Shown: positions 19,088-58,590 of the stretch, one piece after another
Layout: each line of letters starts with the position of its first letter
Numbering within the stretch: the stretch's first letter is position 1
DNA from: Phycisphaerae bacterium
Lineage (GTDB): Bacteria; Planctomycetota; Phycisphaerae; Phycisphaerales; UBA1924
DNA length: 64,000 nt
Direction of reading: 5' to 3'
NCBI GenBank assembly: GCA_030429705.1
Contig: JAUIES010000001.1
Span: 930,001 to 994,000 of the forward strand
Position numbers and translations under genes: made by a program
The notes under the pieces: model-generated
What the model was told of the DNA's origin: nothing
The model's input: the letters and a program-made list of their open reading frames with translations, nothing else
Database searches by the model: none

Positions 19088-20872
19088 CTACACACCTCGA
19101 TCGCTCGACCCCAGTTCGCTGAGTTCATCGCCATAATGCTCGCGGAGAGGCTCGATGACTTCTGCGATGAACCGCTCGGTCTGTTCAACCGCGCGCCCCA
19201 CATACTTCATCGGGTCGAGCAACTGGTCTTCGGTGAGCAGGTGGTGCACGGATGCGAAGGCCGGGTCTTGCCGCAGGCGTTCGATGAGGTCGTTGTCGAG
19301 CCCTTCCTGCTTGACACGCATACCGGCAGCCTGCGCATGAACACGGATCTTCTCGTGCAGGTCCTGGCGATCTCCCCCGAGTTTGACGGCTTCCATCATG
19401 ATGTTCTCGGTCGCCAGGAACGGGAGTTCGGCCATCAGGTTCTTGCGCACCATCGCCTCATTCACCACCAGCCCGCTCGCCACCTCGTGCATGAGATCGA
19501 GGGCCCCGTCGAGCGCGAGGAACGACTCGGGCAGTGACAGGCGGCGGTTCGACGAATCGTCGAGCGTGCGCTCGAGCCACTGCGTCGCAGCTGTGTCATA
19601 GGCGTTGCCGACGAGATTCATCACGAACCGCGTGAGGCCGCAAATGCGCTCGCACTTCATCGGGTTCCGCTTGTAAGGCATGGCTGACGAACCAATCTGG
19701 TTCTTGCCGAACGGCTCGTCGAGTTCCTTGCGGTTGGAAAGCAGGCGGATGTCGGTCGCGATCTTGTGAAGGACAGCAGCGACAGACGCGAGGTCGGCAA
19801 GGATGAATGTGTCGGTGACGCGTGGATAGGTCTGGCCTGTCAAGTCGAAGGTGTGGTAGCGAAGCATGGAGTCAGCTTGATCAGCGACATACTCCTCCTC
19901 TGTCGTGTTGGCTATTCGATCCAATCGTGCTCGAACCTTCGCTGCTTTCTCGGTTTCACCCATCCCTTCACTCATCGCCAGCATTCGGCGTTGACTAGCT
20001 GAAGCCTCTTCCTTCCACCTCTGGAAGTTGACCGCGTTGAACGGTCTGTTCTCAAGTAAGAGCAAGACTCTCCCCTCGAACTCGTCAACGACGCTTGAAT
20101 CAGCGTTGAATAACTGCAAGAACGATGCTTGGGTTCCTGTGGCGCCACGGAAGCCACGAAACATCTGCCAATCATTGAAAAATGTCTGAAACCTCTCAGA
20201 GCGAACGAGATCCAGATTCGCCGCCCATTCCCCAACTCGACGGCCAACAGTGGTGGGTTGCGCGGGCTGGTAGTGCGTGAACCCGAGTGTCGCCAAAGCG
20301 AGATGCTTCGCGGAGGTCTCACCCAGCGTGAGAATCGCGCGAGCAGCTTTGGCCTCGATCTGCTTATGAGCCGCGCGAAGAATAAGTAGATCCGCATTAC
20401 ACACCACATCCTGGCTCGTGCATCCCAGATGGATGATGGCCTTGGCCTTGGGGCATTGCTCGCCGAGGCAGTGGACATGGGCCATGACGTCGTGCCGCAG
20501 TTCGCGTTCGAGTTCACTCGCCCGCACCATCTCAGCGTCGGAGATCCCTCGTTCGACCACCGCCCGCAGTTCCTCGACCTGTTCCTTGGTTACCAGAGGC
20601 CCGGACGCGCCGTGATCCAACGAGCCCCGACCGTCAGGGAGGGGGTTCTTTGCGGACGATCCGATCGATTCGGCCCCCTCCCTCACGGTCGGGGTTCGTT
20701 GATCCGCTTCGCTCCCCCAGTCCTTGGTTACCTCGTACTGCGCCTCGGCCACTGCGAGCCAGATGCGCCGCCAGGTGTTGAACTTGTGCCGGGGTGACCA
20801 GAGCCGAAGCATCTCCGGGCTGGCGTTTCGGCTGGCGAGTGGGCTGGTGTAGGTGTCGTTGGGGTTGGTCAT
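19088..20872 (-). CDS. purB: Adenylosuccinate lyase with two unusual insertions
   Basis: Fumarase/aspartase-superfamily enzyme for two steps of purine synthesis (SAICAR to AICAR, adenylosuccinate to AMP). Key blocks: RHDVMAHVHCLGEQCPKAKA (126-145), GCTSQDVVCNADL (150-162), LGFTHYQPAQPTT (196-208) and the flexible signature loop GSSAMPYKRNP (394-404). The order and the ADSL-like HVHCLGEQCP block place it with the eukaryotic-type PurB group. At 594 residues it is about 100 longer than usual. Residues 58-85 are encoded by a palindromic element in frame, and residues about 269-340 are an extra Gln/Glu/Arg-rich piece in a place where the family has a short link. Both are described separately. The start (20872) begins MTNPNDTYTSPLASR, which suits the family; longer upstream frame overlaps the GNAT gene. 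Confidence 0.93.
   Translation of the reverse strand: MTNPNDTYTSPLASRNASPEMLRLWSPRHKFNTWRRIWLAVAEAQYEVTKDWGSEADQRTPTVREGAESIGSSAKNPLPDGRGSLDHGASGPLVTKEQVEELRAVVERGISDAEMVRASELERELRHDVMAHVHCLGEQCPKAKAIIHLGCTSQDVVCNADLLILRAAHKQIEAKAARAILTLGETSAKHLALATLGFTHYQPAQPTTVGRRVGEWAANLDLVRSERFQTFFNDWQMFRGFRGATGTQASFLQLFNADSSVVDEFEGRVLLLLENRPFNAVNFQRWKEEASASQRRMLAMSEGMGETEKAAKVRARLDRIANTTEEEYVADQADSMLRYHTFDLTGQTYPRVTDTFILADLASVAAVLHKIATDIRLLSNRKELDEPFGKNQIGSSAMPYKRNPMKCERICGLTRFVMNLVGNAYDTAATQWLERTLDDSSNRRLSLPESFLALDGALDLMHEVASGLVVNEAMVRKNLMAELPFLATENIMMEAVKLGGDRQDLHEKIRVHAQAAGMRVKQEGLDNDLIERLRQDPAFASVHHLLTEDQLLDPMKYVGRAVEQTERFIAEVIEPLREHYGDELSELGSSDRGV
20618..20701. repeat. In-frame palindromic element inside purB
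   Basis: Two 28-base arms (20618-20645 and 20674-20701) are inverted copies with two mismatches, built around CCCCGACCGTCAGGGAGGGGG, separated by a 28-base centre. The 84 bases equal 28 codons and sit exactly on codon boundaries (residues 58-85), adding a peptide that includes TPTVREG and PLPDGRGS. It does not break purB. Similar PDGRGS-type peptides are, as far as I recall, scattered in other planctomycete proteins; that needs a search. Confidence 0.85.
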
Positions 20873-20922
20873 GCATGAAGCGTAGGAAAGCGCAATTCGG
20901 GTATACCGACGATCGCCTGGGA

Positions 20923-21441
20923 CTATGACCAGTTCTCTCGGCGGAGTTCGTAGGTCGCGCACAGCACGCTGTAGTAGACATCGCTCAGGCCGGTCTGGGT
21001 GAATCCGGTTTTTTCGAGCACGCGCCGCGATGCGATGTTGTCGGGATAGGAGACCGCGACAAGGCGATCGAGGCCGACAGTGTTGAACGCGTAGTCGGCC
21101 GAAAGCCGCGCAATCTCGGTCGCGAACCCTTGGCCCCAGTGCGCTCGACCGAGTCGGTATCCCAGTTCGTACTCCGGGCCATTGAACGCGATCGGGACGA
21201 TGCCGCCCTGCCCGATGATCGTCCCATCCTTCAGCACAGCGGTGAAGAAGCACATTTTGTGTTCGAGAAATGCTCTGCCGGCGGCCTTGATGCGTTCGCG
21301 GGTCTTCTCGTGTGACCAGACATCACCCGACCCGATGTACCTCATCGTCACCGGGTCAGACCACAAGTCGGCAAGCGTCTCGAAGTCATCGAGCGTGGGC
21401 ACACGAAGGTGCACCCGGTCAGATTGGGCAATATTGGCCAT
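20923..21441 (-). CDS. GNAT family N-acetyltransferase (RimJ/RimL type)
   Basis: A 172-residue acetyltransferase. It begins with VHLRVPTLDDFETLADLWSD, the N-terminal strand and helix of the GNAT fold. ELGYRLGRAHWGQGFATEI is the acetyl-CoA-binding motif A region (Q/R-x2-G-x-G/A) and VAVSYPDNIASRRVLEKTGF is the motif B block of RimJ/RimL-type enzymes. Substrate may be a protein N-terminus or a small molecule. It lies 50 bases upstream of purB, same strand, and diverges from the first GC-dockerin gene, so the 94-base gap must hold promoters for both directions. Confidence 0.9.
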   Translation of the reverse strand: MANIAQSDRVHLRVPTLDDFETLADLWSDPVTMRYIGSGDVWSHEKTRERIKAAGRAFLEHKMCFFTAVLKDGTIIGQGGIVPIAFNGPEYELGYRLGRAHWGQGFATEIARLSADYAFNTVGLDRLVAVSYPDNIASRRVLEKTGFTQTGLSDVYYSVLCATYELRRENWS

Positions 21442-56355: not shown

Positions 56356-58590
56356 TCAGGGCAGGAACGGGATCCGCCCCTTCTTGTCAAGCCCTGACTC
56401 GACTCGAATCCACCCTCGGAGCGATTCGGCCATATCCGAGCATCGATTGAACCGGTCGTCGGGCCGCCTGGCCATGGCTTTGAGGCATATTGCACCGAGT
56501 GACTCAGGCACACTCCAAACCAGCGTCGCCGGTGCCTGCGGCTCTTCGGTCGTGATGCCACGCAAGACCTCTGCCACCGTCCCCTTGTAGGCCGGTCGAT
56601 AACAGAGAAACTCATACAGCACAGCACCAAGGCTCCAGATGTCCGCCCGCGCGTCACCAGCCTGCACTTCATCTGAAAAACTCGCCCAGTCGGCGACGCG
56701 CTCAGGCGACAGGTATCGTGGTGTGCCCACACGAGCACGACCATTCCCCTGACGATCGGCTGGCTTGGTCGCGAGCCCGAAGTCAGTGATCATCATGCGG
56801 CCGTCCTCAGACATCAGCAAGTTGCTCGGCTTGATGTCTCGGTGCAGCACACCTTCGACATGGGCACGCTCGAGACCGTCGGCTACACCCGCAATCCAAC
56901 TCGCCACCAGCAGGTAGTACGGTGTTTTGTCGTGCCCGACCAACTCGCGCAGTTCGGCAGGGCTTCTCCTGGGATCGACCCGCGCGGTTTCAAGAATCTG
57001 GTCGCCGCGCAACTGATGAGTGCCCGCAGACTCAAACGCCTTGATGACTTTTGAACCATCCATCCCGCGGACAAACTGCATGACAAAGTACCCACCGCGA
57101 CCGAGTCTCTCAAACTGATACACCTGCACAATGTTCGGGTGTTCAAGCCTCGCCGCAGCCCGCGCTTCTTGCTGAAGCAACTCCTGCGCTTCCGGATCGA
57201 CCGAACGAAGTACCTTGATCGCGACATCCTTATCAAGTTGATGATCATGCGCGAGGAAGACACGACCCATGCCGCCCGCGCCGATCTCCTCTTTCAATGT
57301 GAATCCACTGATGTCCGGCATGACATCGGCACCCTCTGAGGCATCTGGTGGGGGCGGCGGCGTGCCGCGCGTGGCATGCGTTGCTGCAGAAAGATCCGCT
57401 GCCGTTTCATCAGCATCACTCAACGCAGCAAGACTTGGATCAGGAGCCGCAATACTCGGAGGTGGCGCAACCGGGGCCGCAGGTGTCGACCAACGAGATG
57501 CGGGTCGAGCCGACTTCGAGCCAGTCCGCTCACTCGCCAAGCGGGTCGCTATCTTCACGGCACGATCAATGCGTTGTGTTGGCGATCGACGAGCATGTCC
57601 GAGCGTCAACCACACATCTTCGGTGTCCGGGTTTCGCCCGTCGAGTTCATCATCGAGCATGATCATACATCGAAGCAGTTGATACACATGCGCATCTTCT
57701 TCGAGACCATGCCCACGGGCACGCTCGACGCCTCGCGCGATCAATGCCCGCAACTGGTCCGCGTCTTTCGACCCGGTTTCTTCAGGAAACTCTTCGCGCA
57801 GATCAACTTCAATACGATCGACCAGATCGCCTTCGGCACCGTAAGTGACGCGACGACCCCACGAACGACTGGTGCCAGAATCACTCACGGAAGAAGCATC
57901 GCTTGATGGTTCGTGCGTGCCGCTCAGATCGACCTGTGCATCGTCAGCGGCCGCTAATTGTTGCTCTTCCGGACTGACCTCTTCAGTGCCGCTTGGCTCG
58001 AGCCCCGTCGCAGGTGGGATATGCCCGCGCTCAGGCCACATCGATTCGTCGCGCGTTCGAGCACTCGTCGAAGATCCAGATGACGAACCGGATGATGAAG
58101 ATGAAACAGCATCCTCCTGACTCATGATGAGCCCTGAAGAAGTTGAATCATCATCCGTGTCGATTTCTCCATCAGACGACGGCGTGACCTCTGGTGAAGC
58201 TGGTGCTTCGTCAGCATCGGCAACAGACTCGGTTTCAAGCAGAACCGACCGATCAGCAGGTGCATCCGTCGTGCTGAATTCCGACTTCAATCTGACCCGC
58301 AACGCCGTTGCCCCAACCAGCAACTCGGCACCATCTTCGACAGCCATGGGTTCAGCGACAAAATCGCCATTGAGACAGGTCCCGATCTCATCATCGAGAT
58401 TTTCGACGAACACTTGATCATCGCTGATATACAACCGGCAGTGCCGATCGGCAGCCATGTCGTCTGCAATGCGAATGACACAGTTTGCAGCCCGCCCGAT
58501 GACGCATTCTGAGCCTGGTCCATCGAGCGACGCTTCGAACCGGCCGTCCGAACCCGAACCATCTGTTGTGTTGAGTTCAATGCGAATCAA
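56356..58590 (-). CDS. FHA-domain Ser/Thr protein kinase
   Basis: A 744-residue kinase. An N-terminal FHA domain (about 20-100; SECVIGRAANCVIRIADD, RHCRLYISDDQVFVENLDDE, GTCLNGDF) is followed by a long acidic, Ser-rich linker (SSSGSSSGSSTSARTRDES and EVSPEEQQLAAADD; to about 390). The Hanks-type kinase domain has the Gly loop EEIGAGGMGRVFLA (about 436), the catalytic Lys in KDVAIKVLRS (about 457), HRDIKPSN (about 580), DFGLATKP (about 600) and SPERVADW in place of APE. No membrane helix or extracellular domain is present, so it is a cytoplasmic kinase that could recognise phosphothreonine on its targets or on itself. Downstream lies the FHA protein. Confidence 0.94.
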   Translation of the reverse strand: MIRIELNTTDGSGSDGRFEASLDGPGSECVIGRAANCVIRIADDMAADRHCRLYISDDQVFVENLDDEIGTCLNGDFVAEPMAVEDGAELLVGATALRVRLKSEFSTTDAPADRSVLLETESVADADEAPASPEVTPSSDGEIDTDDDSTSSGLIMSQEDAVSSSSSGSSSGSSTSARTRDESMWPERGHIPPATGLEPSGTEEVSPEEQQLAAADDAQVDLSGTHEPSSDASSVSDSGTSRSWGRRVTYGAEGDLVDRIEVDLREEFPEETGSKDADQLRALIARGVERARGHGLEEDAHVYQLLRCMIMLDDELDGRNPDTEDVWLTLGHARRSPTQRIDRAVKIATRLASERTGSKSARPASRWSTPAAPVAPPPSIAAPDPSLAALSDADETAADLSAATHATRGTPPPPPDASEGADVMPDISGFTLKEEIGAGGMGRVFLAHDHQLDKDVAIKVLRSVDPEAQELLQQEARAAARLEHPNIVQVYQFERLGRGGYFVMQFVRGMDGSKVIKAFESAGTHQLRGDQILETARVDPRRSPAELRELVGHDKTPYYLLVASWIAGVADGLERAHVEGVLHRDIKPSNLLMSEDGRMMITDFGLATKPADRQGNGRARVGTPRYLSPERVADWASFSDEVQAGDARADIWSLGAVLYEFLCYRPAYKGTVAEVLRGITTEEPQAPATLVWSVPESLGAICLKAMARRPDDRFNRCSDMAESLRGWIRVESGLDKKGRIPFLP

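Follow-up and report, generated by a model that had tools for sequence, protein, structure and literature searches.

A REP-like palindromic dimer, probably inserted in frame, in a loop of planctomycete adenylosuccinate lyase

The purB gene is essential for purine synthesis, and in the window (the whole stretch of 64,000 nucleotides of Phycisphaerae DNA that was analysed) its coding sequence contains an 84-bp inverted repeat that leaves the reading frame open. The question is whether this repeat is a mobile palindrome of the kind that enters genes without destroying them, as an earlier note on this DNA proposed, and if so to which type of element it belongs, what could have moved it, and why it lies where it does.

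The palindrome and the peptide it encodes

The purB gene lies on the minus strand at 19088–20872 and specifies a protein of 594 residues, named adenylosuccinate lyase by NCBIfam (TIGR00928, above cut-off). The open frame spans 19088–21253; the start was placed at 20872 (MTNPNDTYTSPL), the position inferred from relatives. Two search matches to purB in the window's genome are two pieces of one gene, the only one found. A search of the whole window for inverted repeats (arms of at least 18 nt, spacing up to 200 bases) listed four, of which that in purB was the longest and most complementary. Its arms, at 20618–20645 and 20674–20701, measure 28 nt each and enclose a 28-nt spacer (20646–20673), just as the earlier note had it; they are 93% complementary. 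The first arm, read on the plus strand, is a REP-like unit with a CAACGAG foot followed by the hairpin CCCC-GA-CC-GTCA-GG-GA-GGGG; the second is an inverted copy, on the minus strand. Folded as single-stranded DNA, the palindrome yielded –34.5 kcal/mol, compared with –15.5 (sd 2.6) for 200 shuffled sequences (z = –7.4). A weaker inverted repeat was seen at 58073–58173, with arms of 26 nt, 73% complementary and 49 nt apart.

With the start at 20872, the 84 bases correspond to codons 58–85 (Q58–L85), reading QRTPTVREG...NPLPDGRGSL. The earlier note had described an exact fit to codon boundaries and a gain of 28 residues. Both descriptions apply to the palindrome itself, but relative to other PurB proteins the extra stretch amounts to ∼37 residues (a loop of 47 instead of 10), roughly residues 55–91, or positions 20600–20710 on the minus strand, with approximate boundaries. 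Judged from this alignment, the 84 bases are the recognisable part of a longer insertion, and because the latter exceeds 84 bases the codon-boundary fit is partly fortuitous. The palindrome is flanked by two copies of a 12-bp direct repeat, TCCTTGGTTACC, also read on the minus strand (20583–20594, LVTK codons, and 20721–20732, EVTK codons). They are poor evidence of a target-site duplication, and this reading of them was rejected: the EVTK/LVTK protein repeat is more or less present in relatives that lack the insert, so the 12-bp repeat is largely older coding sequence. The exact empty site was not seen, since the genomes listed include no second member of the window's genus.

The structure predicted for PurB (52 sequences used, pTM 0.89) matches solved adenylosuccinate lyases. 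Residues 67–86, inside the insert, form its sole run of three or more residues with pLDDT below 50, and fall between helices 27–49 and 96–108; alignment with solved homologues leaves a gap at residues 47–92. The insert is thus predicted to fill a disordered loop in an otherwise confident model. The peptide would be harmless to the enzyme, judging from the open frame and from purB having been found once. A second PurB region, just before TGQTYPR (window 19853–20071, approximately residues 268–340), is hypervariable in length and sequence among the aligned Phycisphaerales; unlike the REP loop it is predicted to be largely helical, with pLDDT values mostly from the high 70s to the low 90s.

Copies of the unit, their hairpin and the genes they enter

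When the 84-mer was used as a query against both strands of the window's genome (3.49 Mb, 8 contigs), 53 matches were obtained at E ≤ 10, the weakest of them chance-like. The core CGACCGTSAGGGAGG, allowing up to two mismatches, rendered 52 matches (27 + 25), compared with three for the reversed control. Those with at most one mismatch (32 of the 52) clustered at 26 sites; removal of two doubtful ones, C4:140418, whose foot is weak, and C4:1424617, which lacks REP context and lies within a carboxymuconolactone decarboxylase family gene, left ∼24. Single units are common, while five sites are close inverted pairs resembling that in purB. These copies support the proposal that a mobile palindrome had been inserted in frame. 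In a set of 120 genomes of the same family-level group (Phycisphaerales, Planctomycetota), an exact CGACCGTSAGGGAG was found in 49, its control in none, and 30 held at least five copies of the family that bears it.

The unit has the layout foot-CCCC-GA-CC-GTSA-GG-GA-GGGG, which is read here as a stem that includes a tandem G.A step and is capped by a loop of four bases. Among 71 distinct units from fetched loci, the outer four stem pairs were standard in 92–100%, with C-G/G-C exchanges at the second (50/20) and fourth (36/29) pairs, both forms occurring in the window's own genome. Since these units had been picked by their core, only the outer pairs test the hairpin, and the exchanges may reflect a few lineages. 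Avoidance of stop codons beyond the effect of composition, as a pre-adaptation, was not supported: units had 4.87 open frames and shuffled sequences 5.08.

REPs have been described as palindromes of 20–40 nt, single or in inverted dimers, mostly intergenic, with dimers or groups inside genes encoding 20–30 residues (Di Nocera et al. 2013, PMC3733652, main text); the PVC group is among the bacteria in which they are recorded there. The window family is alike in size (an imperfect 28-nt palindrome with a compensated outer stem), in being dispersed in many copies (24 sites, five of them pairs) and in lying mostly outside genes, with five sites in named genes. It differs in its foot, CAACGAG, which ends in CGAG rather than being GTAG or CGTC; the unit is therefore REP-like by structure but outside both tagged superfamilies. 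GCAG or GTAG feet do occur in relatives such as G088, G113 and G141.

Of the 32 copies with no more than one mismatch, 30 were inspected for the ORFs around them. The five sites in named genes are all in frame, in purB, ispH, carB, lipA and the gene for topoisomerase VI subunit B, a number far below that expected from random placement in a genome assumed to be ∼85% coding. The peptide search suggested by the earlier note thus found the same peptides in other genes: ispH carries two tandem units (QRAPAVREG...QRAPTVREG), lipA reads QTPTIREG, topoisomerase VI subunit B TSPDREGG and carB TSPDHEGGG, so that the unit is read in two different frames. Compared with solved homologues, the inserts fall in gaps at residues 275–307 of LipA, at 255–296 of IspH (where the match beyond is weak), in one of 10–12 residues in CarB, and at 233–289 of topoisomerase VI B, the last far longer than the unit. 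A Pfam scan of ten further ORFs over copies left seven without a match; in the three with one, the copy was near the N-terminal end in two and was itself a chance match to the unit in the other. In genome G129 (loci L192 and L195) the same REP family was seen in frame in leuS and in an rluD-like gene, both named by eye, the latter running on, also by eye, into methyltransferase-like sequence.

Insertion in frame in several unrelated genes, with the addition of a peptide, is also what is described for the Rickettsia palindromic elements (Ogata et al. 2000, 2002, as summarised in PMC10969869), of ∼150 bp and known from Rickettsia. The likeness drawn by the earlier note stands in this respect, though not in anatomy: the element of the window is an 84-bp pair of REP-like units, occurs in a planctomycete, and is linked to a transposase in relatives. 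The comparison is one of descriptions.

The purB loop across the family

A purB match was found in 113 of the 120 genomes, 112 of which were examined (G095 was left out because its match was fragmentary). The loop measured 5 residues in 68 genomes, 10 in 22, 15–18 in five, and 26–58 in 16, the window's included; it was a single residue in G122, where the frame seems to change within the loop and which was counted as not long. In this last genome (locus L314, G122:C23) two N-terminal purB pieces in different frames overlap in the loop, which appears to reflect an assembly error or an out-of-frame change. The insert is therefore present in some relatives and absent from others, and the pattern that would have spoken against a mobile palindrome, the peptide in all PurB orthologues and no palindrome elsewhere, was not what was observed.

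For 11 of the 16 long inserts, further members of the palindrome family are scattered through the genome that carries the insert; four families account for these cases. The window family had 18 exact cores in the window's genome (G000), 8 in G032 and 30 in G128. For the AACGAGCCCCTCGCGC family, matches on both strands, which exceed the number of places since each strand is counted, were 41 in G132, 32 in G139 and 19 in G078, with 12 in the also long-looped G117; there were one and three in G023 and G106, short-loop congeners of G132, and none in G000, G032 or G134. The GGTGGCACAGGC family had 77 matches in G102 and 29 in G018, and none in G012 and G129, congeners of G102, or in G014, G130 and G103; by this query no dispersal was found for the insert of G103. 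With up to three mismatches, the GAGCCCCGAGCGCAAGCTCGGG family had 24 matches in each of G121 and G123 and 20 in G126 (control, 0–1), one and none in the congeners G084 and G097, and 10 and 5 in G090 and G143, short-loop congeners of G123. The long-looped genomes outside the eleven are G103, G107, G109, G117 and G013.

Inverted repeats were sought in 20 of the loops, each compared with 60 mononucleotide shuffles. Twelve of the 16 long loops beat every shuffle and that of G123 tied, whereas those of G126, G013 and G109 did not; none of the four shorter loops tested beat all of its shuffles. Eight genera (g7, g33, g24, g13, g15, g87, g94 and g81) combine a long loop with a congener whose loop is of 5 or 10 residues; the corresponding length in g34 is 15, and in g75 all three members are long-looped. 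A rapidly built tree of the N-terminal region, from which the loop had been excluded, was weakly supported (7 of 109 inner branches starred). On it the 16 long loops require at least 13 changes and the window family three for its three carriers (G000, G032 and G128), these being changes in which gain and loss are not separable. Given four dispersed families in the same place, and short-loop congeners in eight genera, one PurB loop seems to have taken up different palindromes again and again, apparently in separate events. A precedent is recB, in which two Xanthomonas species carry different REPs at about one site (PMC3733652); here there are four families in one loop, in many genera, with short-loop congeners for comparison. 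The word adenylosuccinate is absent from the main text of that paper, tables aside.

A candidate mobiliser and the origin of the insert

In genome G088, units occur in groups on both sides of a gene of at most 170 residues bearing the motifs NHVH and Y----Q. These motifs, and flanking by atypical hairpins that are sometimes present in high copy number, are those given for the class-3 Y1 transposases (TnpA Y1), found principally in Planctomycetes, Acidobacteria and Proteobacteria (PMC6006769); the passages of that study on this class give the hairpin foot as CnGA and make no mention of genic insertion. A search with 157 residues of the G088 protein detected a class-3 gene in 57 of the 120 genomes. 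The best-matching locus was examined in 30 of these 57: the REP core (up to two mismatches) lay on both sides of the gene in eight, on one side in two and on neither in 20, and five loci had units with a GCG/CGC stem and the AACGAG-type foot seen in the window. The motif pattern caught NHVH (NHIH in one case) together with Y----Q in 18 of the 30, while the narrower consensus tabulated in PMC6006769 (W[TA], YV[VI][AENY]EQ) fitted some loci only. On a tree of 30 sequences, kept after removal of four duplicates, nine of the ten REP-flanked transposases formed one clade (support 80/91); the tenth has a diverged unit. Two other families showed the same association, class-3 genes being flanked on either side by AACGAGCCCCTCGCGC matches in G132, G078 and G139 and by GAGCCCCGAGCGC matches in G123.

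At least five copies were present in 10 of the 12 genomes with a close transposase (E < 1e-44) and in 20 of the other 108 (Fisher P = 1.2e-5), or in 10 of 16 versus 20 of 104 at a cut of 1e-40 (P = 7e-4), with cuts picked after the list had been seen and tests that ignore kinship. A merely distant class-3 gene showed no tie to copy number (8 of 41 versus 12 of 63; P = 1). In the window's genome, which is 96% complete, the search detected no class-3 transposase, and units were not seen flanking a Y1 gene, the arrangement of a REPtron found at 10 of the 30 loci of relatives; it is one of 12 copy-rich genomes, out of 30, with no class-3 gene. The copies in the window's genome may accordingly be relics or owe their movement to a gene that the genome no longer has. 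Taken together, the clade of REP-flanked class-3 transposases is the likely mobiliser of the window family.

The two PF01797 (Y1) transposases of the window's genome were rejected as mobilisers, the unit being absent from their loci (up to three mismatches, ∼1.5 kb), as were PF01797 genes in general, which are above cut-off in 92 of the 120 genomes whereas the REP is patchy. On visual inspection, a palindrome other than the window's unit borders each of the two, ACCGAAGTCCG... at G000:C4:1845448 (L182) and GGTGGCATGGTC... at G000:C8:265589 (L183), so further REP-like families may exist in this genome.

In seven genomes, which belong to six genera (G088, G083, G113, G117, G078, G130 and G101; loci L196, L197, L198, L201, L204, L209 and L210), a class-3 gene adjoins purB at a distance of 0.13–0.31 kb, upstream in six and downstream in one, and on the same strand in four and the opposite one in three. 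The estimate for chance adjacency was ∼0.1 (4 kb in 3.5 Mb, ∼100 matches). The seven need at least four changes on the transposase tree, which fits either repeated arrival or an old site with losses. Adjacency alone does not predict insertion, as only two of the seven genomes (G117 and G078) are long-looped. It is a tentative idea, which we hold to be possible rather than probable, that purB is a preferred home of class-3 REPtrons, from which several hairpin families have been repeatedly delivered, the loop being targeted, or even selected, as a landing site rather than simply tolerant.

The reading that best accounts for these results, to which we assign a probability of roughly 0.88 as a whole, is that a REP-like, BIME-like dimer of two inverted 28-nt units was inserted near residue 55, in the interhelix loop of PurB, and would be translated into an extension predicted to be disordered. 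The units would spread as single-stranded hairpins by means of a class-3 Y1 (HUH) transposase, since lost from the window's genome or acting from elsewhere; insertions in genes would persist only if their length preserves the frame and a disordered loop can be accommodated by the protein, and the PurB loop would be such a tolerant site, hit repeatedly by whichever family was active in a lineage. That the loop is instead old and native, its codons palindromic by chance and no mobile DNA involved, is hardly credible: the same DNA unit lies at ∼23 other sites of the window's genome, other genera carry in this loop different palindromes that are scattered through their respective genomes, and the congeners of carriers have short loops. 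G013, G032 and G107, of other genera, nevertheless have long loops there too, and since these loops end in SGPLV, part of the loop length may predate the palindrome.

A classical MITE, moved by a DDE transposase with target-site duplication and not by an HUH enzyme, would explain an inverted-repeat dimer with 12-bp direct repeats nearby, but is improbable given the abundance of single units, the older coding origin of those repeats, and the units that flank HUH transposase genes in relatives. Rather more room, though still a minor share, is left for one ancestral insertion that G000, G032 and possibly G013 have in common and that was subsequently retained, degraded or homogenised. G000 and G032 do share the family, the place and similar flanks, and G013 could by eye be an eroded copy; yet G108 and G134, congeners of G032, have 10-residue loops, and on the weakly supported tree, blind to gain versus loss, the changes counted are as many as the carriers for the window family and 13 for the 16 long loops.

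Earlier publications already describe intragenic REPs, Rickettsia palindromic elements lying in frame and, in Planctomycetes, class-3 transposases flanked by hairpins. So far as literature searches show, the window family, its class-3 link and the presence of several families in one loop are new; searches of the open-licence PMC literature, supplementary tables aside, yielded no description of the family, its peptides or palindromes in purB, and a similar case may be listed in tables of intragenic REPs. One review regards what the Rickettsia elements contribute to protein evolution as unexplored, and class-3 Y1 transposases are said to need experimental work (PMC6006769). In the purB loop, different selfish palindromes form a natural series at a single site of an essential enzyme, which can be compared with short-looped relatives; the class-3 Y1 transposases, sometimes encoded next to purB itself, provide a candidate mobiliser. 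Such a series lets one ask whether these insertions are tolerated noise, the outcome of transposase targeting, or a source of new protein loops.
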